IMG/VR virus record: IMGVR_UViG_3300030107_005022
Coordinates: 39,348 to 61,189 of that record
Source of the DNA: a virus
Reading direction: 5' to 3' (one strand)
DNA: 21,842 nt
The translations under genes were made by a program, and so were the position numbers. The number at the start of each line of letters is the position of its first letter. The stretch's first letter is position 1. The notes under the pieces are model-generated. The model made no database searches. It was not told the origin of the DNA and was given only the letters and a program-made list of their open reading frames with translations. Of the stretch, positions 1 through 12,348 are shown piece after piece.

Positions 1-2
1 GT

Positions 3-428
3 GAAGTATACGAAGAACTAGTTAAAAAATACCCTGAAGAAAAAATTGCTAAATCTACAGTTTATTCTTGGCCTACAAGAAATGATTGGAAAACAGACTT
101 TAAAGAAATTCAAATAAAAGCTAAAAAAGAAATACAAGAATCTGAAAGTCAAAGACTAGCTAGAACAAATCTAGAACACTTAGATGAATATACGACTCTT
201 AGAAGTAAAGCCTTAGCAGAATTAGGTATATTAGAATTTAAAACTGCTGAAGGAGCTGCTAAAGCCCTAGATATGGGTATACAAGGAGAAAGAAAAGTAA
301 TGGATGGTCTAATTAATTTGAATTTTGTTCAAGATATAATAAGTGTTCTCGTAGATGAAATTGAAGATAAAGAATTATTAAGAAAAATAAGCCTAAAAAT
401 AAAAGGTGTTTTACAAGAACATGAATAA
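3..428 (+). CDS. Terminase small subunit-like protein (5' partial)
   Basis: The frame is open from the left edge and stops at TAA 426-428, giving about 141 residues with the start outside the window. The N-terminal part (VYEELVKKYPEEKIAKSTVYSW, read in two pieces: EELVKKYPEEK and STVYSWPTRNDW) looks like a helix-turn-helix of the kind used by small terminases to bind DNA at the packaging site. The rest is charged and helical (IQIKAKKEIQESES, then LRKISLKIKGVLQ), as expected for an oligomerising region. It lies directly upstream of the large terminase and overlaps it by 8 bases (ATGAATAA), so the two are probably translationally coupled. No family was recognised with certainty; the call rests on the HTH, size and position. 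An alternative is another HTH regulator. Confidence 0.6.
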   Translation, partial: EVYEELVKKYPEEKIAKSTVYSWPTRNDWKTDFKEIQIKAKKEIQESESQRLARTNLEHLDEYTTLRSKALAELGILEFKTAEGAAKALDMGIQGERKVMDGLINLNFVQDIISVLVDEIEDKELLRKISLKIKGVLQEHE

Positions 429-2091
429 AAAAGTAGACTTTAAACAATTAATTTCATATACAGATGCTTTTGAAAAATTAGCAGATGGATTAGTATCTTC
501 TGATGGAAAAACATATATAGGAGATTTTCATTCTTTTTTAAGAGACGTTTGGTCTCAAAGTTTTGATCATCCTGAATATTTTAATGCTTGGCATATAGGG
601 GTTTTAGCCGATGATATAGAAAGATGTTTAGATGAGGGGAAAAATTTAGTAGCTGTTCTTCCAAGATTTCATTTTAAGTCTACTATTCTAGGACATGCTT
701 TTAGTGTATGGAGATTATTACAATCAAAAAGAGATATGTCAGTTCTTTATCTATCATTTAGTGATGGAATGGCTAGATATCATTTATCAGAAATAAATAA
801 AACAGTACAGAGAAATCCTATTTTAACTAGTATGATGGTAAACAGATCACCAAAAGCAGATTTTTCTTTTAGATATTATATAAATAAAAACCCTATGGAA
901 ATTATGCATGGGGGATTGTTTTCCTTCAAAAGAGGGATGCACGTCAATGGAGCTTTGATAGCTGATGACGTATTAAGAGACCCTGAAAACCCTTTGAACA
1001 TGGGGCAGATAACAAAAGTAGAAGATCACTTTATGACAGAATCAATGTTTATACCATTAAAAGGAGTTCCTGTTATTGTATTAGGAACCCCTATGATGCC
1101 GGGAGATTTATTAAGCAAGCTGCAAAATGATGAAAGATTTATAGCTAGAACATTACCTGCTTTAGACCCAACTCCAAAAAGAAGAGTATTAATGCCTGAA
1201 TTATATGACGAAAAATGGTTATTAAATCAACAGAAAGCAAGACCTAAATCTTTTGCTTCAGAGTTTTTATTGCAACCACACTTCTCTACTGAATCTTATT
1301 TTGAAGAAGACCAAATTACTGCTTGTGAAGACGAAAAATTATTGAATTTATCGTATAATAAGATATATCAAAAATCTATAGATGAACAAATATTTGGGGG
1401 ATTTGATGTCGGTAAAAAAAGACATCCTTCTCACTTAGTTCTATTCAGTAGAATAGGAGACGAAGTAAAACAAATCCATTCCTCCTTTTTAGATGGGTGG
1501 AATTATACAGACCAAGTAGATTATCTGAATGAAGTAGCTGAAAACTACCAATTAGATGGAGGATATGTAGATAATACTAGAGGAGAATTAGAAGACAGGG
1601 GTTTGCATAGACTTTGGAGATCAATGTCTTTTACAAGAAAGTCTAAAAATACAATGGCTCAAGTCTTTGAGAAGTTTATAGTATCAGGAAAACTAAAGTT
1701 AATACAAGACGAGAGGCAGAAGCAACAAATAATCTCAGTTAACAATGAGTTAAAAGCCCCTGAAACCCCAATGGGTCATGGAGATGCTTTCTTCTCAATA
1801 GCTATGGCTTTACAGGCTATACACGAAACAGGAGAATTTAAATACGAAAATATAGGAAGTGTTTCAGATTGGTTAGATGCGATATCACCTGATGAATCGC
1901 CTAAACCGAAAGAACATCCTGTACTTAAAAAATTAAAGTTTGAAGGGGACACTAAAACAACAATCTCGATTGATGGAGTTCAGGAAAGAGATATGGAATC
2001 ATTAAACCCTAACTGTAGGGAACAGTTTTGTGTACCGGAATTTTGGGTTCTAGAAAATAAATTATGTTTATATTGCAATTACAGAGGATAA
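421..2091 (+). CDS. terL: Terminase large subunit (TerL)
   Basis: This is the motor ATPase and nuclease that packages phage DNA into the prohead. Numbering from ATG 421 (556 aa), a Walker A-like segment PRFHFKST lies at about 81-88, a Walker B segment ALIADDV at about 178-184, and a coupling-type motif VLGTPMMPGD at about 220-229. RNase H-fold nuclease acidics are GFDVG (about D329), GYVDN (about D384) and GHGDAFFS (about D455). The C-terminus carries Cys 532, 537, 549 and 552 (C-x4-C-x11-C-x2-C), which looks like an added zinc-binding knuckle. ATG 421 is preferred because it overlaps the preceding stop; a GTG at 406 would add five residues but has no better ribosome binding site. The Walker A lacks the usual glycine before Lys, a variation also known in other terminases. 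Confidence 0.92.
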   Translation: MNKKVDFKQLISYTDAFEKLADGLVSSDGKTYIGDFHSFLRDVWSQSFDHPEYFNAWHIGVLADDIERCLDEGKNLVAVLPRFHFKSTILGHAFSVWRLLQSKRDMSVLYLSFSDGMARYHLSEINKTVQRNPILTSMMVNRSPKADFSFRYYINKNPMEIMHGGLFSFKRGMHVNGALIADDVLRDPENPLNMGQITKVEDHFMTESMFIPLKGVPVIVLGTPMMPGDLLSKLQNDERFIARTLPALDPTPKRRVLMPELYDEKWLLNQQKARPKSFASEFLLQPHFSTESYFEEDQITACEDEKLLNLSYNKIYQKSIDEQIFGGFDVGKKRHPSHLVLFSRIGDEVKQIHSSFLDGWNYTDQVDYLNEVAENYQLDGGYVDNTRGELEDRGLHRLWRSMSFTRKSKNTMAQVFEKFIVSGKLKLIQDERQKQQIISVNNELKAPETPMGHGDAFFSIAMALQAIHETGEFKYENIGSVSDWLDAISPDESPKPKEHPVLKKLKFEGDTKTTISIDGVQERDMESLNPNCREQFCVPEFWVLENKLCLYCNYRG

Positions 2092-2100
2092 GGAGTAGAA

Positions 2101-3975
2101 ATGGATAATATAACAACATCTCTTAATGAACAAACAGAAGAAATCGGAGAGTCTGAATCAGAACTGACCGAACAAGCCGAAGTAGTATTAAACCATAGGT
2201 ATTATTTAAAAGATACTGAGGGAGAAGTTACTGAAAATAGTTCAGAATTATTTAGAAGAGTAGCGAAAGCTGTATCTTCTATAGAAAAAAGTTATAAAAT
2301 TTTACCTGTAGAATCAGAATTACTAGAAAAAGATTTCTATTCTATGATGTCAAAATTAGAATTTATCCCTAACTCACCTACATTAATGAATGCAGGAACA
2401 GAACAAGGTACATTATCAGCTTGTTTCGTACTTCCACTAGAAGACTCTATGGAAGACATAATGAAAACAGCTCATGATATAGCTATGGTTCAAAAATTTG
2501 GTGGTGGTACAGGATTTGCCTTATCACATTTAAGACCAAAAGGAGATAAAATAAAAACTACTCATGGGATTGCTTGTGGGCCTATAGCTGTTTTAAAAAC
2601 TTTATCTCAAGTATCTTCTATGATTACTCAAGGTGGAAAAAGAGATGGAGCAAATATGGCAGTAATGGCTGTATCACATCCTGATATTGAAGAGTTTATT
2701 TCTTGTAAAGCTGTAGAAGGCGATATACATAATTTTAATATTTCAGTTGGTGTAGATACCAAGTTCATGGAAGCTGTAAAGAATAATACTAGTTATCCTC
2801 TTGTTAATCCAAACACTAAACAGATTACTAAATGGATAGATGCAAGAGAATTGTTTAGTACTATAGTAGATGGGGCTTGGAGAAACGGAGAACCCGGTAT
2901 GATTTTCTTGGACAAAGTAAACGAAGATAATGTTGTTATAGATACTCTCGGAGAAATGGTTGCAACTAATCCTTGTGGGGAACAACCACTTTTAGGAAAT
3001 GAAAGTTGTAATTTAGGCTCAATAAACCTAGCTAAATTTTATAGGAATGTTAAAGGAAGTTGGGAAGATAAAATAGATTGGGATAATTTGAAAAAAGTTA
3101 CTACTCTATCTACACATTTCTTAGACAATGTAATTGATGCAAATAAATATGCTACTAAAGATATAGAAAATATGACGAAATCTACTCGAAAGATAGGGTT
3201 AGGTGTCATGGGATTTGCAGATTTACTAATCCAATTAAGAATTCCTTATAATACCGAACTAGCTAGAGAAGTCGGAGAATACATAATGAAATTTATTAGA
3301 GAAAACTCTGATTTTTATTCTAAACATTTAGCTAATCTTAGAGGAGTATATCCTGCAGGAGAAGGGAATGATGAATATAGGAATGCTTGTAGAATGACAG
3401 TAGCTCCAACAGGAACTATTTCTATGATTGCAGGTTGTTCTAGTGGAATAGAACCTTCTTTTGCGTTGGTGTGGAAGAAAGCTAATATACTAGAAGGTAA
3501 AACTTTATACTATTCTAATAAGTATTTTGAAGAAGATGCGAAAAAACACGGATTTTATTCAGAAGATTTAATGGAATATTTATCTAATGGGGGTTCTTTA
3601 CAAGATAGAGATGAAGTTCCACAATGGATAAAGAGTGTATATATTACTTCCCCTGAAATTTCACCTGAAGCTCATGTATTAATGCAATCAGCTTTTCAAA
3701 AATCTGTTGATTCAGGTATATCTAAAACAATTAATTTCCCAAATGAAGCTACTAGAGAAGATGTTCAAGAAGCTTACTTGTTAGCATGGGAAACAGGATG
3801 TAAAGGTATAACTGTTTATAGAGCAGGTAGCAGAGAAAAAGAAGTATTAGTAAAAGGAACTGATAAAAAAGAAGAAGAGGAAGTTTTTATGTGTTGTGAT
3901 TCTCCTAATATAGTAGAAGAGTCAGGATGTGAAACTTGTAAGGTGTGTGGTTGGAGTCTTTGTCATGTTGCATAA
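2101..3975 (+). CDS. nrdJ: Class II (adenosylcobalamin-dependent) ribonucleotide reductase
   Basis: The enzyme reduces ribonucleotides to deoxyribonucleotides with a B12-generated thiyl radical, supplying dNTPs for phage DNA synthesis in the cytoplasm. It has 624 aa, close to the core length of the family. Recognisable signatures are NSPTLMNAG at about 91-99, the first redox Cys in GTLSACF (C108), FGGGTGF at about 133-139, NPCGEQ at 290-295 (radical Cys 292, Glu 294), ESCNLGSINL (C303), TVAPTGTISMIAG, and KTINFPNEAT...GCKGITVYRAGSR near the end. The C-terminus has the class II type swivel cysteines (C598, C599, C610, C613, C616, C621; CETCKVCGWSLC). AAGGAG precedes the ATG. It sits between terL and portal, an uncommon place for a nucleotide-metabolism gene, and its base composition matches its neighbours. 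Confidence 0.93.
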   Translation: MDNITTSLNEQTEEIGESESELTEQAEVVLNHRYYLKDTEGEVTENSSELFRRVAKAVSSIEKSYKILPVESELLEKDFYSMMSKLEFIPNSPTLMNAGTEQGTLSACFVLPLEDSMEDIMKTAHDIAMVQKFGGGTGFALSHLRPKGDKIKTTHGIACGPIAVLKTLSQVSSMITQGGKRDGANMAVMAVSHPDIEEFISCKAVEGDIHNFNISVGVDTKFMEAVKNNTSYPLVNPNTKQITKWIDARELFSTIVDGAWRNGEPGMIFLDKVNEDNVVIDTLGEMVATNPCGEQPLLGNESCNLGSINLAKFYRNVKGSWEDKIDWDNLKKVTTLSTHFLDNVIDANKYATKDIENMTKSTRKIGLGVMGFADLLIQLRIPYNTELAREVGEYIMKFIRENSDFYSKHLANLRGVYPAGEGNDEYRNACRMTVAPTGTISMIAGCSSGIEPSFALVWKKANILEGKTLYYSNKYFEEDAKKHGFYSEDLMEYLSNGGSLQDRDEVPQWIKSVYITSPEISPEAHVLMQSAFQKSVDSGISKTINFPNEATREDVQEAYLLAWETGCKGITVYRAGSREKEVLVKGTDKKEEEEVFMCCDSPNIVEESGCETCKVCGWSLCHVA

Positions 3976-4402
3976 AGAAATATTTTTAGATATAATAAGT
4001 AAAGCAAAGAAAACAGCTAAAAAAAGAAATCCTGCTTTATGGTCTAGAATAAAATCTGCTGTAAAAGCAGGGAGTAAAGGTGGAAGAGCTGGTCAATGGT
4101 CTGCTCGTAAAGCCCAATTAGCAGTACAAAGATATAAAAAATCAGGTGGAGGATATAAAGGAAAGAAAACAGGTAAGACAGGATTAAGTAGATGGACTAA
4201 ACAGAAATGGGGAACTAAATCAGGTAAACCTAGTAGAAAGACAGGAGAAAGGTATTTACCTAAAAAAGCTAGACAAGCTTTATCTCCACAAGAATATGGA
4301 GCTAGTACAAGAGCTAAAAGGAAGGCTACTAAACAAGGGAAGCAATTCTCAGCCCAACCTAAAAAAATAGCTCGAAAAACAGCAAAGTACAGAAAAAAGT
4401 AA
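3965..4402 (+). CDS. Strongly basic DUF5872-like protein
   Basis: The product is a 145-aa lysine- and arginine-rich protein, likely to bind nucleic acid. The central segment (TGLSRWTKQKWGTKSGKPS, then GERYLPKKARQALSPQEY, then TRAKRKATKQGKQF) matches what I recall of the DUF5872 family, found in phages and some large DNA viruses. An N-terminal part, NPALWSRIKSAVKAG with GQWSARKAQLAV, is also typical of such proteins. ATG 3965 is chosen because GGAG lies 8 nt upstream; a GTG at 3929 in the same frame would extend it by 12 residues. The gene overlaps the end of nrdJ by 11 bases, so the two are probably co-translated. Function is unknown; DNA condensation or packaging is inference from charge and position. 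Confidence 0.8.
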   Translation: MLHKEIFLDIISKAKKTAKKRNPALWSRIKSAVKAGSKGGRAGQWSARKAQLAVQRYKKSGGGYKGKKTGKTGLSRWTKQKWGTKSGKPSRKTGERYLPKKARQALSPQEYGASTRAKRKATKQGKQFSAQPKKIARKTAKYRKK

Positions 4403-4408
4403 AAAATT

Positions 4409-4420
4409 TAGTATAATATA
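4409..4420 (+). promoter_or_regulatory. Candidate -10-only phage promoter, copy 1
   Basis: The 12-mer TAGTATAATATA lies in the 32-base gap before the gene at 4435, with TATAAT at 4412-4417. No -35 hexamer is visible at a normal distance. The identical 12-mer occurs twice more in intergenic gaps (9234-9245 and 9978-9989), which is the main reason to call it a promoter. AGGAG at 4424-4428 then serves the ATG at 4435, so a transcript from here would have a very short leader. Confidence 0.4.
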
Positions 4421-4434
4421 AATAGGAGTATAGT

Positions 4435-4881
4435 ATGGCAGTAGGCAATATGCTTAGAGATAGAGACATTCAGTATGTGGCTATGAAAGATGAAACCACA
4501 CAAACGTGGAGAATTTTAGACACATGGCATGAAGAATTAAAGAATTTAGACCCGGATGATGACGTACCTGATGATAGTAAAGCAGTTAGTGTACTAACAG
4601 AAGGACAATTCTTGGCTATAGTAAAAGAAGCAGCTAGATTAGGAGTTTTACAGAATGTAAACCTTTCTAATGTCGAAGAAGTTGAAGAATTAGAAGATAA
4701 GATTTTAGGTTTAGAAGAAGAAATATCAGATTTAAAAACTGATGCTACTAAACATGAAACAGAAAATAACATTTTAAAGCAAGAACCTACATCTGAAAGT
4801 TTTATGATAAAGAAATTAGCTATGAATAACATTATGAAACTTGCAGCTATAGATGATGTAAACAAACTTGCAGTAGATTAA
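4435..4881 (+). CDS. Hypothetical coiled-coil protein upstream of portal
   Basis: This is a 148-aa acidic protein that I do not recognise. The N-terminal half (RDIQYVAMKDETTQTWRILD and a QFLAIVKEAARLGVL helix) looks globular. Residues from about 78 to 108 (VEEVEELEDKILGLEEEISD) form a clear heptad-type coiled coil, and the end is helical (MIKKLAMNNIMKLAAIDDV). It has AGGAG six bases before the ATG and follows a candidate promoter motif. It lies between the basic DUF5872-like gene and the portal gene, 11 bases before the latter, so a role in the virion or in head assembly is possible but not shown. Confidence 0.72.
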   Translation: MAVGNMLRDRDIQYVAMKDETTQTWRILDTWHEELKNLDPDDDVPDDSKAVSVLTEGQFLAIVKEAARLGVLQNVNLSNVEEVEELEDKILGLEEEISDLKTDATKHETENNILKQEPTSESFMIKKLAMNNIMKLAAIDDVNKLAVD

Positions 4882-4892
4882 AAGGTGAAAAT

Positions 4893-6833
4893 ATGGCAAA
4901 ATTAGGTGATTACCTTCCTGAAGTACCTCAAATAGTTAATCAAATGACTGAATTCAACGAGAATTTGAATTTATTACAGTTAATGAAATCAGATGGAGAT
5001 AAAGCAACAGCCCCAACATTAGGTCTTGACCATGTAGTAAATACATGGGTCAGACACCAAATGGCTTATAGACAACAATTAGTAATGGATTTACAGACTA
5101 TTACTTATTCAGTTGCTGAAATAAGGTCTCCACTAGGACATATAACTAGTGAAGTATTTAGAAGAGGGGTAAAAATTCTTCCTAAAGTTGAAAATCCAAG
5201 CATGGAAGAAAAAGAAAGACTAGAGAAATTAATTTTAGACTGTAATATTTTTGATCAGACTTTAGAAGAAGTGTTTAGACAGTTTCATTATGATGTAAAT
5301 TCTATTGATGATGGATTTATTTATATAGTTAAAGAATATACATCTAGAGAAAACAACAGAATAACGTCTAGAGTTAAAGAAATAAGAAGATTAAATCCAG
5401 CTTTAGTAGAATTTGATTTAGATACTGCTGGATTACCAAAAAATTCACATTTTCTATGTCCAATACATAGAGAAGAAGTAAGCGAAAAACCCGGTATTTG
5501 TAAATCTTCAGGCTGTAGCCATAAATTATGGCCAGCTATGTATAAATATTATCATAGAAATCAACATGTATACTTATTTGATGGAGAAGTTATTCATGTT
5601 TCTAAGTTCTCTCCATCAGAAACATATGGTTGGTCGCCTATATTAACTATATTTGAAAAAGCTTTAACTCTTATAGGTATGGATAAAAATATTTATAGGT
5701 ATTTCTTCGAGAGAAAAATGCCAGCTTCTATGGTAATGGTAACAACAGACGATCCTGAGAGTCTAAGAAGGGAAAGAGCTCATATAGCAGCTCAAACTAG
5801 AATAGACCCTAATTATATACCTATGGTAGCTGTATCTTCTAGAAACAATAGAGGTAGAGTTGATATGGTTAGACTGTTTCATACTCTACAAGAAATGGAC
5901 TACTTACCTGTTAGACAGGAAATAAGAGAAAGAGTAGCTGCAATGTGGGGTGTTACTCCTGCATGGCAAGGTACTCCTGATGCTTTCGGTGGTTTATCGA
6001 CACAAACCCAACAATTAGTTGTTATGGGTCGTGTTGTAGAAGCAGATCAAAGATTATTCCATGAAAAAGTTATCCCCTTACTTATGAAAGCTTTATCTGT
6101 AGAAGATTGGGTTATTCAATTAGAACAACCTGAAGAAAAAGCTGAAGCAACTAGAATAAGTTTTGCTACACAAAGAGCTCAAATTGCCAATCAATATTTA
6201 CAGATGGGATTTGATGTAAAATTAAAACAGAGTGATGTTTCAATAGATGATGCTGAATTCTTAATAGCAGGTGAACCTGTTCCAACAGCTAAAATGCAAG
6301 GAGAACAAACAGCTATGGCCATTGAACAGCAAAAAGAACAAGCTGAACAAATGAAAGCTATGCAAGAAGGGGCAGGTGGAGAAGAAGGAGGAGGAGAAGA
6401 AATGGAAAAATCTTTAAATATAGATGAAGGGGCTATAAGAACAGCTGTAGAAAAAGCTTTTACTCCTGATTTCCATGCTAAAGGCCCTGATAAAGAAAGA
6501 GATATAGATGAATGGGCTAAGAAAAGAGAGAAAAAAGCTGAAGACAGAGCCTATGGTTTTAAAGATGTAGGAGGAAATCCTAAAAATTATCAAAAATCTT
6601 GGATAGAAGATTTATCAGATCAAGGATTTACATCTCCAATAATTAAATCTGTAACAGATGATGGGTCTCAAATGTGGTTCTCTCAAAATAATATTGATTA
6701 TGTAGCTTTATTATCTCCTTCAGGAGTAGTAAATGTAGAGAAAGCTTCTTTTACTCCTACAACTCCTTCAGTTTCATATAATCCAACAGGTTCAAATACT
6801 AGAAATAATAAAGAAGATGATGAGGAAGATTAA
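4893..6833 (+). CDS. Portal protein
   Basis: The dodecameric portal forms the DNA entry vertex of the head and docks the terminase. The 646-aa size, the position after terL and before the capsid genes, and segments such as DGEVIHVSKFSPSETYGWSP (about 230-249), the long helical stem region (PVRQEIRERVAAMWGVTP) and SIDDAEFLIAGEPVP support the call. An insertion at about 186-212 holds C189, H192, C203, C208 and H210 (CPIH...CKSSGCSH), probably a zinc-binding loop. After about residue 470 there is a Gln/Glu-rich helix, a GGEEGGGEE linker and an extra C-terminal domain ending in an acidic tail. AAGGTG precedes the ATG by 6 nt. The stop overlaps the next start as TAATG. Confidence 0.88.
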   Translation: MAKLGDYLPEVPQIVNQMTEFNENLNLLQLMKSDGDKATAPTLGLDHVVNTWVRHQMAYRQQLVMDLQTITYSVAEIRSPLGHITSEVFRRGVKILPKVENPSMEEKERLEKLILDCNIFDQTLEEVFRQFHYDVNSIDDGFIYIVKEYTSRENNRITSRVKEIRRLNPALVEFDLDTAGLPKNSHFLCPIHREEVSEKPGICKSSGCSHKLWPAMYKYYHRNQHVYLFDGEVIHVSKFSPSETYGWSPILTIFEKALTLIGMDKNIYRYFFERKMPASMVMVTTDDPESLRRERAHIAAQTRIDPNYIPMVAVSSRNNRGRVDMVRLFHTLQEMDYLPVRQEIRERVAAMWGVTPAWQGTPDAFGGLSTQTQQLVVMGRVVEADQRLFHEKVIPLLMKALSVEDWVIQLEQPEEKAEATRISFATQRAQIANQYLQMGFDVKLKQSDVSIDDAEFLIAGEPVPTAKMQGEQTAMAIEQQKEQAEQMKAMQEGAGGEEGGGEEMEKSLNIDEGAIRTAVEKAFTPDFHAKGPDKERDIDEWAKKREKKAEDRAYGFKDVGGNPKNYQKSWIEDLSDQGFTSPIIKSVTDDGSQMWFSQNNIDYVALLSPSGVVNVEKASFTPTTPSVSYNPTGSNTRNNKEDDEED

Positions 6834-7762
6834 TGCCAATTAAAAAAACCAATAAGGGATGGTATTGGGGAAGTAAAGGCCCCTTCAACTCTAAAAAGAA
6901 AGCCCAAGAAGTTGCTCAAGCAGCTTACGCTTCAGGATATAAGAAGAGTTTCCAAGAAGGAAATATAACTAAATTAATAGAAAGTATTGTATATGACCTG
7001 AGAAAAGAAAATGGGGGAGGTTTTAACGGAAGTAGTGGTACAGTTTTTACTTCAACTAATTCAGGAATCTTTACTCCTACTTATGGTAGTTCAAAGTCAA
7101 CACGCAGACGGAAAAAGAAAATCCGTGATAAAAGAAGTAAAGGTCAAGGATTAATAAGTGCTAAAAAAAGATCAGGAGTAGAAAGACTTCAAAGATGGAT
7201 GTCTGATAGATCACCTGTAAAAAAATTAAAGAAGGATGTTGAAATATCTAAAGGTAATCAATCAGGAATTCTTACAGGAAGTTCTTCAGGGTATCAAACC
7301 CAACCTGTAAACAATCCTATGCGAATAGATTGGCAAAAACCCCATAAAGATATGATTAGACATAAAGAGGATGACACGCCTAAATATGTAGAGAGAGGAG
7401 AAGAAGACGATAAAAAACAAAATTTATCTGTTATAGAACAAAACGATTTTGAAAGGAAGGTAACTGAAATGGATGATGATAACAAAAGAAAAACTAGAGG
7501 AAGAGACACTAAAGAATTAGATAACGAAGCTTCTGCAGCTGCAGGAGTAATGCAGTTATCAAAACAACCAAATAAATTTGGTAATCCTCAAGATGATGAA
7601 TTGTTGCGAGGAGCAAAAAAAGACAAATCAAAACAAAATGGAAAGGTAAATTTAGAGTTAGATGCTAATAAGCCTTTACATTCAATTGAAAAAGCGTTAG
7701 AATTAGCAGATAAAGATGGAATAAGCATCTTTGAAGCATTAAGAAAAATAGATAATGAGTAA
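6833..7762 (+). CDS. Phage protein with GWYWGSKGPF motif
   Basis: The product has 309 aa and unknown function. The first 35 residues (KKTNKGWYWGSKGPF, then KKAQEVAQAAYASGYK) match a short motif I have seen repeatedly in phage structural or portal-associated proteins. A Gly/Ser/Thr-rich linker follows (about 60-90), then a strongly basic stretch (RRRKKKIRDKRSKGQG at about 93-108) and a largely disordered acidic and basic C-terminal half. The end, HSIEKALELADKDGISIFEAL, looks like a small helical module. TAATG overlap with the portal stop implies translational coupling. A virion-associated or portal-accessory role is inference from position. The basic tract could contact DNA. Confidence 0.75.
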   Translation: MPIKKTNKGWYWGSKGPFNSKKKAQEVAQAAYASGYKKSFQEGNITKLIESIVYDLRKENGGGFNGSSGTVFTSTNSGIFTPTYGSSKSTRRRKKKIRDKRSKGQGLISAKKRSGVERLQRWMSDRSPVKKLKKDVEISKGNQSGILTGSSSGYQTQPVNNPMRIDWQKPHKDMIRHKEDDTPKYVERGEEDDKKQNLSVIEQNDFERKVTEMDDDNKRKTRGRDTKELDNEASAAAGVMQLSKQPNKFGNPQDDELLRGAKKDKSKQNGKVNLELDANKPLHSIEKALELADKDGISIFEALRKIDNE

Positions 7763-8039
7763 TATTTTATCTAAACAGGAGTGCCCTAAATGTACAGGGA
7801 AAATGTTTCTAAATCAAGATAAAGATTTACAATGTTTATATTGTGGAAAAATAATAGTTTTAAAGATTAGGAGAAGTTATGATACCGGAAAAGGCAAAAT
7901 CAGAGATAATAAGAAAACACGCAATGGGGGAGACTTGGACAGCCATAAGGAATTGGTTGGAAGAAGAGTATGGGGTGAAGGTTCACAGAACAACCATTTC
8001 AAGATGGCACGCAAAAGAGGTTTATTCAAGACCTATTAA
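7755..8039 (+). CDS. Small zinc-ribbon protein with overprinted tail
   Basis: This 94-aa frame starts at ATG 7755, overlapping the preceding stop as ATGAGTAA. Residues 10-30 form a clear zinc ribbon (CPKC, then CLYC: Cys 10, 13, 27, 30). The ribbon ends at about residue 38, and from 7879 on the same DNA is read in another frame by the HTH-phosphoesterase gene. The last 54 residues (Gly-, Lys- and Arg-rich, no recognisable fold) are therefore overprinted over 161 bases. The ribbon looks real. The tail may be only a passenger extension, or the site may involve a frameshift that fuses the ribbon to the downstream protein. Function is unknown. Confidence 0.6.
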   Translation: MSNILSKQECPKCTGKMFLNQDKDLQCLYCGKIIVLKIRRSYDTGKGKIRDNKKTRNGGDLDSHKELVGRRVWGEGSQNNHFKMARKRGLFKTY

Positions 8040-9213
8040 AGAAGAAGAAGATATAGAAATTGAAGTAAACCTATCCGAAGAAGACAGGATAAAATTAGAT
8101 AAAAAAGTTATCACTCATAAAGCTGAATCTAAATACTTTAAAAAAATGTATGAGAAGGTTTTAAAAGAGAATACAAGAGTCGATCTTATCATAGAAGCTA
8201 TTCAAAATTATGCCCCTGCTTTTAAAAGTCATCCTAAAATTAAATACCCAAAACCCAAAGGAAAAGTAAGAGGGAAAAGTCCTGTAACAGCTATTGCTCC
8301 TTTGACTGATACTCACGTTGGAGATGTTGTTCGTGCTGATCAAATGTTAGGATTAAATGCTTATGACATAGATATCTTTAATAAAAGGTTATATGGATGG
8401 GCTGAACAAGTATTGAATCTAACTAACTTTCAAAGAACTCATACAGAAGTCACTCATTTAGTAATTCCAATGCTTGGAGATATGATTAGTGGGGATATAC
8501 ATGATGAGTTAGCTAGAACAAATGCAGACAATAATTTAGGTCAAATGATTAGAGGAGCCAATTTAATATCTCAAGCTTTAATGTATTTAGCTCCACACTA
8601 CGAAGAAATAAGAGTTCCTTGTATTGTAGGTAATCATGGTCGTATGACTAGAAAGATACCTGCTAAAGATAAATATTTAGATTGGGATTACATGTTGTAT
8701 CAATGGGTAGCAACTTTTTGTAGAAATCAAAAGAATATAAAGTTTGAAATACCTAAAAGTTTTGCTCATATCTTTGAAGCAGCAAACAGAAAATTCCTTA
8801 TTTTACATGGAGATTCTATAAGTGGTTCAGGAAGTTTAGTAGGAATGAATAACTCAGCTGCTAAATTAAGAGGAGTATTGCAATATAGGAAAGGTCTAGA
8901 AGAAGAAGTATCTAGGCTTAATATAGATAGTGCTGCTCCGATAGGATATGATTTTGATACTGTTATGATGGGACATTTTCATAGAGTAGATGAGATAGAT
9001 ATTGGTACAGGAGAGTTATTTATATGTGGAACTATGAAAGGTGGAGACGAATATGCCCTAAATAGACTTCATTTAATATCTAAACCTAAACAAATCATTA
9101 CTTGGTGGCATCCTAAATATGGATATCTAAGCAAGAATATTATATATTTAAACCGATATGATTCAAGCGAAGAAGCTTTTGAAGATGTTTTACCTGAAAT
9201 TTGGGCTGACTAG
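7879..9213 (+). CDS. HTH plus calcineurin-like metallophosphoesterase
   Basis: This is a 444-aa two-part protein. Residues 1-50 (KSEIIRKHAMGETW, then GVKVHRTTISRWHAKE) form a helix-turn-helix resembling those of recombinases and small terminases. Residues about 138-370 carry the metal-binding motifs of calcineurin-like phosphoesterases in order: TDTHVGD (D144, H146), GDMISGD (D201), GNHGR (N252, H253), LHGDS (H310) and GHFH (H366, H368). Such proteins hydrolyse phosphodiesters or phosphomonoesters with two metal ions. With the HTH, a DNA-directed nuclease or phosphatase is likely, but the substrate is unknown. AGGAG lies 5 nt before the ATG. It overlaps the zinc-ribbon frame at its 5' end. 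Confidence 0.85.
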   Translation: MIPEKAKSEIIRKHAMGETWTAIRNWLEEEYGVKVHRTTISRWHAKEVYSRPIKEEEDIEIEVNLSEEDRIKLDKKVITHKAESKYFKKMYEKVLKENTRVDLIIEAIQNYAPAFKSHPKIKYPKPKGKVRGKSPVTAIAPLTDTHVGDVVRADQMLGLNAYDIDIFNKRLYGWAEQVLNLTNFQRTHTEVTHLVIPMLGDMISGDIHDELARTNADNNLGQMIRGANLISQALMYLAPHYEEIRVPCIVGNHGRMTRKIPAKDKYLDWDYMLYQWVATFCRNQKNIKFEIPKSFAHIFEAANRKFLILHGDSISGSGSLVGMNNSAAKLRGVLQYRKGLEEEVSRLNIDSAAPIGYDFDTVMMGHFHRVDEIDIGTGELFICGTMKGGDEYALNRLHLISKPKQIITWWHPKYGYLSKNIIYLNRYDSSEEAFEDVLPEIWAD

Positions 9214-11007: not shown

Positions 11008-12348
11008 ATGGCAAATCCATCCTTATCAGAATACGTTTCCCAAAGTCAAAGAGGCTTATACTCTTCAGTATTTGGCCCTGAATACTTAATGAAGCAGACC
11101 TACTTTACTGTAGATACTGCAACAGGCATATTCAATACGACTTACGGAAGAAAAGTATGGCAAGCTTTGAACAACCAAACTCGTGCTTTTAATGCAATAC
11201 CAAGAACTGTATGGGGTAATACAGCTGGTTGGAGAATCAGAACTGACAGAGGTTCAGGAAGATCACGACCTGTAACAGAAACAGGTTCTCTACCTACTGT
11301 TGACGTTTCAAATATAGAAAGCGTCAGCTCCCTACCAAAGATTGTATCAACAACCTTTGGAGCATCAGTCAAGTCCGTATTTACTGCCCAATTAGAAGGT
11401 GGTGTAGGTGACGTATTAGCATTAGAAAACGAAAATGCTCAACTTGACCATGTAAAAGAAATGAACCAAGAATTATTAGCTGGTTCTGCATACCAATTAT
11501 CAGGTGGTTCAACTACCACATCGGTACTTGGTTCAAACTCAACTGAAGCAGCCCACTTTAAAGTAGGCGACACAGTAGCTTTCTACGATGCTTCAGCTAC
11601 AGCTAACATTAAAACAGACGCTAGTGTAACAGTATCTAGCGTATCTTCAGCAACAATTACTCACGGAGCTGCAGGTGTAACCCTAGCAGACGGAGACGTT
11701 ATTTTCGCTTTGAGAAGAGCTGGAATAACTTCCCTTGATGACATTGTGTCCGAAGATGGAATGGCAGTAGGTGGTGTAAATGCTTCACCTTCAGCTTATG
11801 ACTTAACAGTCGCAGGAAGAACAGCTGGGCAATGGAATGCAGCAGCTAGTGCTTCTTACAATAGTGGTACAGGAAGAGATTTATCTCTAAACCTTTTAGA
11901 TACTGCTATCCAAAAAATCAGAACTAATGGTGGTGAACCTAAAGTAATCATCATGGGTCATGATCAGTACTTCAAGCTAGAGAGATTATTAAACTCTCAA
12001 CAGAGGTATATGGGACAAGAAGAATACCAAGTTGGTGTCGGATCAGAAAAGACTTTCCCCGGTACTAGAACAGGTCTTGTTCTTGCAACTTATCAGGGTA
12101 TTCCAATACTACCTGATGCAGATACTCCGAAGTCAATTAACTCTTCAGATACTGCTTTAGGTTCAAACGTTTACGTTTTGGATACCGACTATCTCGAAAT
12201 CGCTATAGCTCAACCTACTCAGTATGTTGAGAATAGAGACTACTTCGCAGCCAATGCTTTGGTTGTAAGAGGTCTTCTTTACACTATGGGTGAAATGAGA
12301 TGTCACAACTTCTTTGTACAAGCAAAGATTGCTGACTTAAACAGCTAA
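11008..12348 (+). CDS. Major capsid protein, HK97-fold type
   Basis: This 446-aa protein should form the icosahedral shell. The N-terminal region (SLSEYVSQSQRGLYSSVFG), the Thr/Ser-rich beta segments, the long central helix (LDHVKEMNQELLAGSAYQL) and the C-terminal part with IIMGHDQYFKLERLL, GTRTGLVLATYQGIPILP and YVLDTDYLEIAIAQPTQY fit a phage major capsid protein of the HK97 fold. Residues about 168-236 look like an inserted beta domain (HFKVGDTVAFYDAS...TLADGDVIFAL). Codon choice is more C-rich at third positions than in its neighbours, consistent with high expression. AGGAAA precedes the ATG by 9 nt. A strong terminator follows. Confidence 0.86.
   Translation: MANPSLSEYVSQSQRGLYSSVFGPEYLMKQTYFTVDTATGIFNTTYGRKVWQALNNQTRAFNAIPRTVWGNTAGWRIRTDRGSGRSRPVTETGSLPTVDVSNIESVSSLPKIVSTTFGASVKSVFTAQLEGGVGDVLALENENAQLDHVKEMNQELLAGSAYQLSGGSTTTSVLGSNSTEAAHFKVGDTVAFYDASATANIKTDASVTVSSVSSATITHGAAGVTLADGDVIFALRRAGITSLDDIVSEDGMAVGGVNASPSAYDLTVAGRTAGQWNAAASASYNSGTGRDLSLNLLDTAIQKIRTNGGEPKVIIMGHDQYFKLERLLNSQQRYMGQEEYQVGVGSEKTFPGTRTGLVLATYQGIPILPDADTPKSINSSDTALGSNVYVLDTDYLEIAIAQPTQYVENRDYFAANALVVRGLLYTMGEMRCHNFFVQAKIADLNS

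Follow-up and report, generated by a model that had tools for sequence, protein, structure and literature searches.

The stretch of DNA analysed here (the window) comprises the right-hand 21.8 kb (21,842 nucleotides, positions 39348–61189) of a 61,189-bp virus record, and coordinates given below are those of the window unless a locus is named. It opens with a terS-like gene (3–428, + strand), whose 5′ part lies outside the window and for which 154 homologous ORFs were found in the fetched loci. This gene adjoins and overlaps terL, which encodes the terminase large subunit (406–2091, +; phrog_38, E = 2e-25). A ribosome-binding site, AAGGAG (2090–2095, +), overlaps the terL stop codon and precedes nrdJ (2101–3975, +), a gene for a dimeric class II (adenosylcobalamin-dependent) ribonucleotide reductase (RNR) that begins 9 nt behind terL. 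Downstream of nrdJ follow the gene of a basic protein of 145 amino acids (3965–4402, +; match to phrog_14910/17747, with GGAG at 3953–3956), that of a 148-residue coil protein, o148 (4435–4881, +), and then the portal gene (4893–6833, +), which matches phrog_18178 (E = 2e-39) and the HVTV-1/HCTV portals (E = 1e-32). The placement of nrdJ between terL and the portal gene, as reported in the first-pass annotation, is thus confirmed.

Two further features of the head module deserve mention. The C-terminus of TerL (2014–2091) carries a C-x4-C ... W ... L-C-x2-C arrangement, in which C537, C542, C554 and C557 are invariant in a 15-row alignment (A3); this zinc-knuckle-like Cys4 end is kept across the phage group. 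Between portal and capsid lies a conserved gene (7879–9213) that combines an HTH with an SbcD-like metallophosphoesterase, which gives the head module a second nucleic-acid enzyme. PADLOC gave no match for a defence role.

The nrdJ reading frame is intact, starts with ATG and encodes 624 amino acids. Its product scores 666.5 bits against the NrdJ_Z model TIGR02504, for which the curated cut-off is 399.95, and covers positions 4–606 of the 606 in the model. The Pfam search matched only the lgN (all-alpha) and lgC (barrel) domains, with no ATP-cone detected, and the best solved relative is the B12-dependent RNR of T. maritima (PDB code 1xje; E = 2e-108). In an 18-row alignment (A1), the redox cysteine C108 in SACFVLP (codon 2422–2424, +), the active-site loop N290-P-C292-G-E294 with the thiyl-radical cysteine (2968–2982, +; N290, C292 and E294 invariant) and the second redox cysteine C303 in CNLGS (codon 3007–3009, +) are all conserved without exception. 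The same holds for C610, C613, C616 and C621 of the C-terminal cysteine tail, GCETCKVCGWSLC (3925–3963, +), which would re-reduce the active site. All three catalytic motifs are present in 163/163 viral NrdJ copies.

Other reductase classes fit less well: the monomeric class II model (RTPR, TIGR02505) yields 74.8 bits against a cut-off of 340, and the class I alpha model (NrdA/NrdE, TIGR02506) 305.8 against 341 bits, with no partner nrdB. A search for the class I beta subunit NrdB (PF00268) with a model that matches 7 of 14 controls found none in the 61-kb record, which is possibly incomplete. Because both domains and the active-site and tail cysteines are present and the NrdJ_Z cut-off is exceeded, we regard the reductase as complete; judged from its sequence, window 2101–3975 encodes a complete dimeric class II NrdJ, in line with the earlier description of a B12-dependent enzyme with all its catalytic cysteines. 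Truncation is ruled out by the full model coverage and the presence of the tail cysteines, and the possibility raised earlier that the B12-binding part is cut short does not hold, as barrel and C-terminal tail are complete. Dimeric class II RNRs are not known to possess a distinct B12 domain that might be lost in this way.

From what is known of the family, homolysis of adenosylcobalamin at the barrel would generate a thiyl radical on C292, which would in turn start the reduction of a ribonucleoside diphosphate; we infer cofactor use, substrate and activity in the viral protein. C108 and C303 would supply the electrons for this reduction, and the C-terminal cysteines would recharge this pair with the help of a thioredoxin-like donor. 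The outcome would be a raised supply of dNTPs during replication of the phage genome. An 87-residue protein with a CCPSC motif, encoded at locus L227 (518–781), has a weak Rdx/thioredoxin-like match and is a possible electron donor for NrdJ.

To place the gene order in context, relatives were fetched independently via nrdJ, terL, portal and capsid, the last three sets being made without using nrdJ. Most of the IMG/VR contigs are fragments. For the first three sets combined, nrdJ lies between terL and portal in 154/154 loci that hold both in order (best 80 matches per scan). After removal of duplicates by portal sequence and addition of the later capsid and portal sets, 133 distinct viruses that hold both genes remained, and every one of them (133/133) has nrdJ in this slot and on the same strand, with a median terL–nrdJ gap of 11 nt and with o148 present in the interval; these figures refer to the best 80 matches per scan, and a distant branch devoid of nrdJ may have escaped notice. 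The capsid- and portal-fetched set likewise has nrdJ in 55/55 loci that extend far enough upstream of the portal gene (best 80 matches per scan), and starting from divergent portals no relative without nrdJ was found among the matches listed. The order terL–nrdJ–(basic)–o148–portal is therefore universal in the sampled group, and since all 133 viruses share the slot, the placement is ordinary for these phages.

This comparison of terL–portal intervals bears directly on the first-pass annotation, which had taken nrdJ to be out of place and perhaps inserted and had named conservation of the order as grounds for giving up that view. Phage reductases do usually neighbour replication or nucleotide genes (PMC6302109 among the sources), as they mostly do in the other annotated phages that we looked at, and in virioplankton the RNR is also found near polA (PMC6302109). 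The slot itself appears permissive: the haloarchaeal virus HVTV-1 has an HNH endonuclease gene there, not an RNR. A recent transfer of nrdJ, perhaps together with the basic-protein gene, from elsewhere into the packaging module is nevertheless highly improbable in view of the position shared by 133/133 relatives, a single viral NrdJ clade and a G+C content of nrdJ equal to that of the neighbouring genes; with a replication module also immediately upstream, the gene is not misplaced. The conserved position refutes a recent insertion and leaves as possible only an old one, in the ancestor of the group.

The overlap of nrdJ with the basic-protein gene is a more local matter. It amounts to 11 nt if the latter gene starts at the ATG at 3965; the ORF listing gives an earlier GTG start at 3929. 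Close relatives that carry the basic gene retain the ATG, located ten bases ahead of the final nrdJ base, so translational coupling of the two genes, as read from this arrangement, is plausible there. The gene occurs, however, in only 14 of the 133 distinct relatives (best 80 matches per scan). The overlap noticed earlier is thus real, and the tie between the two genes that was drawn from it concerns a subclade only.

Upstream of terS, the same record encodes, all on the + strand, a sigma-70-like factor, DnaB, a Toprim primase, a family A polymerase, RecA and a RuvC-like nuclease, and these replication genes end just before terS. The sigma-70-like factor (regions 2 and 4; L228:8824–9357) stands in front of the replication genes. 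A replication and recombination module directly upstream of terS is found in almost every relative whose contig reaches that far (ruvC in 91/91, recA in 59/59, polA in 22/22 and dnaB in 6/7; best 80 matches per scan). It follows that nrdJ lies where the replication module meets the head module and is not far from the replication genes. No terminator-like site was found on the + strand of window 1–7000, and a promoter scan gave fewer matches than in shuffled sequences. Expression of nrdJ together with the head genes, suggested earlier, is plausible given the single strand, the tight spacing and the lack of a + strand terminator-like site, and nrdJ is probably part of a single transcript that covers the replication genes and continues into the packaging and head genes.

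One might go further and propose a late, packaging-linked enzyme, made with terminase and portal for DNA repair or completion, or even carried in the virion. The universal position inside the head module would agree with this, as would the likewise conserved HTH and SbcD-like phosphoesterase gene between portal and capsid. However, no extra domain is seen on the protein. The replication genes, moreover, share its strand and lie immediately upstream, so that late-only expression does not follow from the position by itself. We consider such a role improbable.

In phylogenetic trees, the viral NrdJs form one clade (support 100/100) that joins the NrdJs of SAR202-type Chloroflexota in a larger clade, again with 100/100 support, distinct from the remaining bacterial and archaeal sequences in the trees. 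Two NrdJ trees agree on the viral clade and on its grouping with the SAR202-type sequences, so that the tree called for in the first-pass annotation has now been supplied. The AU test did not separate a viral clade nested within SAR202 from one that is its sister (p = 0.33), and the viral stem branch is long (0.71). A genome scan likewise placed the nearest NrdJs in SAR202/Dehalococcoidia, where 15/294 Dehalococcoidia genomes encode an NrdJ of 58–65% identity and the rest do not exceed 53%. No phage genes flank the nrdJ loci of SAR202, which are cellular. A single viral clade joined to SAR202-type NrdJ points to one old acquisition and to a probable SAR202-type host. The phylogeny suggests that nrdJ came from SAR202-type bacteria long ago; the acquisition would have happened once, before the group diversified. 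An acquired gene bears on the host indirectly, since the phages may now infect cells other than the donor.

Several lines of evidence bear on the host itself. The sigma-70 and RecA genes of the virus are of bacterial type. Searches with a TerL profile gave homologues in 3/294 Dehalococcoidia genomes versus 0/574 genomes of three other classes, a small contrast (about p = 0.04 by estimate). The three homologues (L495:1719–3383, L496:7231–8895 and L493:774–2438) are distant, and their loci are remnants: the contigs are short, the neighbours are host-type genes, and neither portal nor nrdJ is present. A portal profile had no match in the 294 Dehalococcoidia genomes and thus revealed no provirus by that gene. 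Our literature search, which covered open-licence papers, returned no relevant paper on phages of SAR202.

The head proteins, by contrast, resemble those of archaeal viruses. The portal (4893–6833) and the major capsid protein (11008–12348) are nearest to those of haloarchaeal and methanoarchaeal viruses, namely HVTV-1/HCTV and, for the capsid, also a Methanofastidiosa virus, while the replication genes look bacterial. Membership of a Druskaviridae-like group was considered and rejected, as portal and capsid are only distantly similar and a TerL search gave no match to that group. An archaeal host, which the portal and capsid resemblance might suggest, is disfavoured by the phage sigma-70, RecA and the NrdJ tree.

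A broader alternative is that the nrdJ of an ancestral phage stemmed from a SAR202-type cell or a different phage, and that the group now infects other bacteria or archaea. The likeness of the head proteins to those of archaeal viruses, the failure of the portal search to reveal proviruses or binned copies in the 294 Dehalococcoidia genomes and the long stem of the viral NrdJ branch would all be compatible with such a history. It is opposed by the bacterial sigma-70 and RecA and by the restriction of TerL homologues to Dehalococcoidia among the four classes searched, and we hold it to be rather unlikely, if well worth keeping in mind. A SAR202-type bacterium is the probable host, as far as can be judged from genome comparisons. 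Our leaning, by a modest degree, is towards a large group of tailed phages that infects SAR202-type Chloroflexota and in which one ancestral capture of a host nrdJ became fixed between terL and portal.

Taken together, we are fairly confident that the gene encodes a normal phage dimeric class II RNR with a predicted role in dNTP supply, fixed at the boundary of the replication and head modules and acquired once from a SAR202-type bacterium, the likeliest host. The original observation is correct, and the arrangement is ordinary in a little-known group of uncultivated tailed phages, in whose sampled members nrdJ is a fixed gene. As a genome oddity the placement matters little, the order being the rule in the group. 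The part worth following is NrdJ as a testable lead to the host of these uncultivated phages, which have been sampled widely, and the terL–nrdJ–portal order offers a compact marker for finding further members in metagenomes.

Among known systems, the T. maritima enzyme (1xje) and the TIGR02504 family share with the viral protein the full barrel, the catalytic cysteines, the VYRxGS end and the C-terminal cysteine tail. The SAR202-type NrdJs, its nearest relatives, differ in their cellular genomic setting, their length of about 790–900 amino acids and a longer linker: the tail after VYR measures 49–106 residues in viral NrdJ versus 199–243 in nearly all SAR202 NrdJ, and the C-terminal linker of the viral enzyme would thus be shorter than in cellular enzymes. 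HVTV-1 and HCTV-5 (Druskaviridae) are alike in portal and capsid (26–31%) but have an archaeal host, and the TerL search matched none of them. Cobaviruses are marine phages likewise defined by a B12-dependent RNR; they are, however, podoviruses of Rhodobacteraceae (PMC6775973). The isolated and unrelated Janthinobacterium phage Donnerlittchen (NC_073031, Mesyanzhinovviridae) likewise has its reductase gene between terL and portal, although the reductase identity is only 29.5% and its interval also holds a tRNA, a DNA ligase and other genes.
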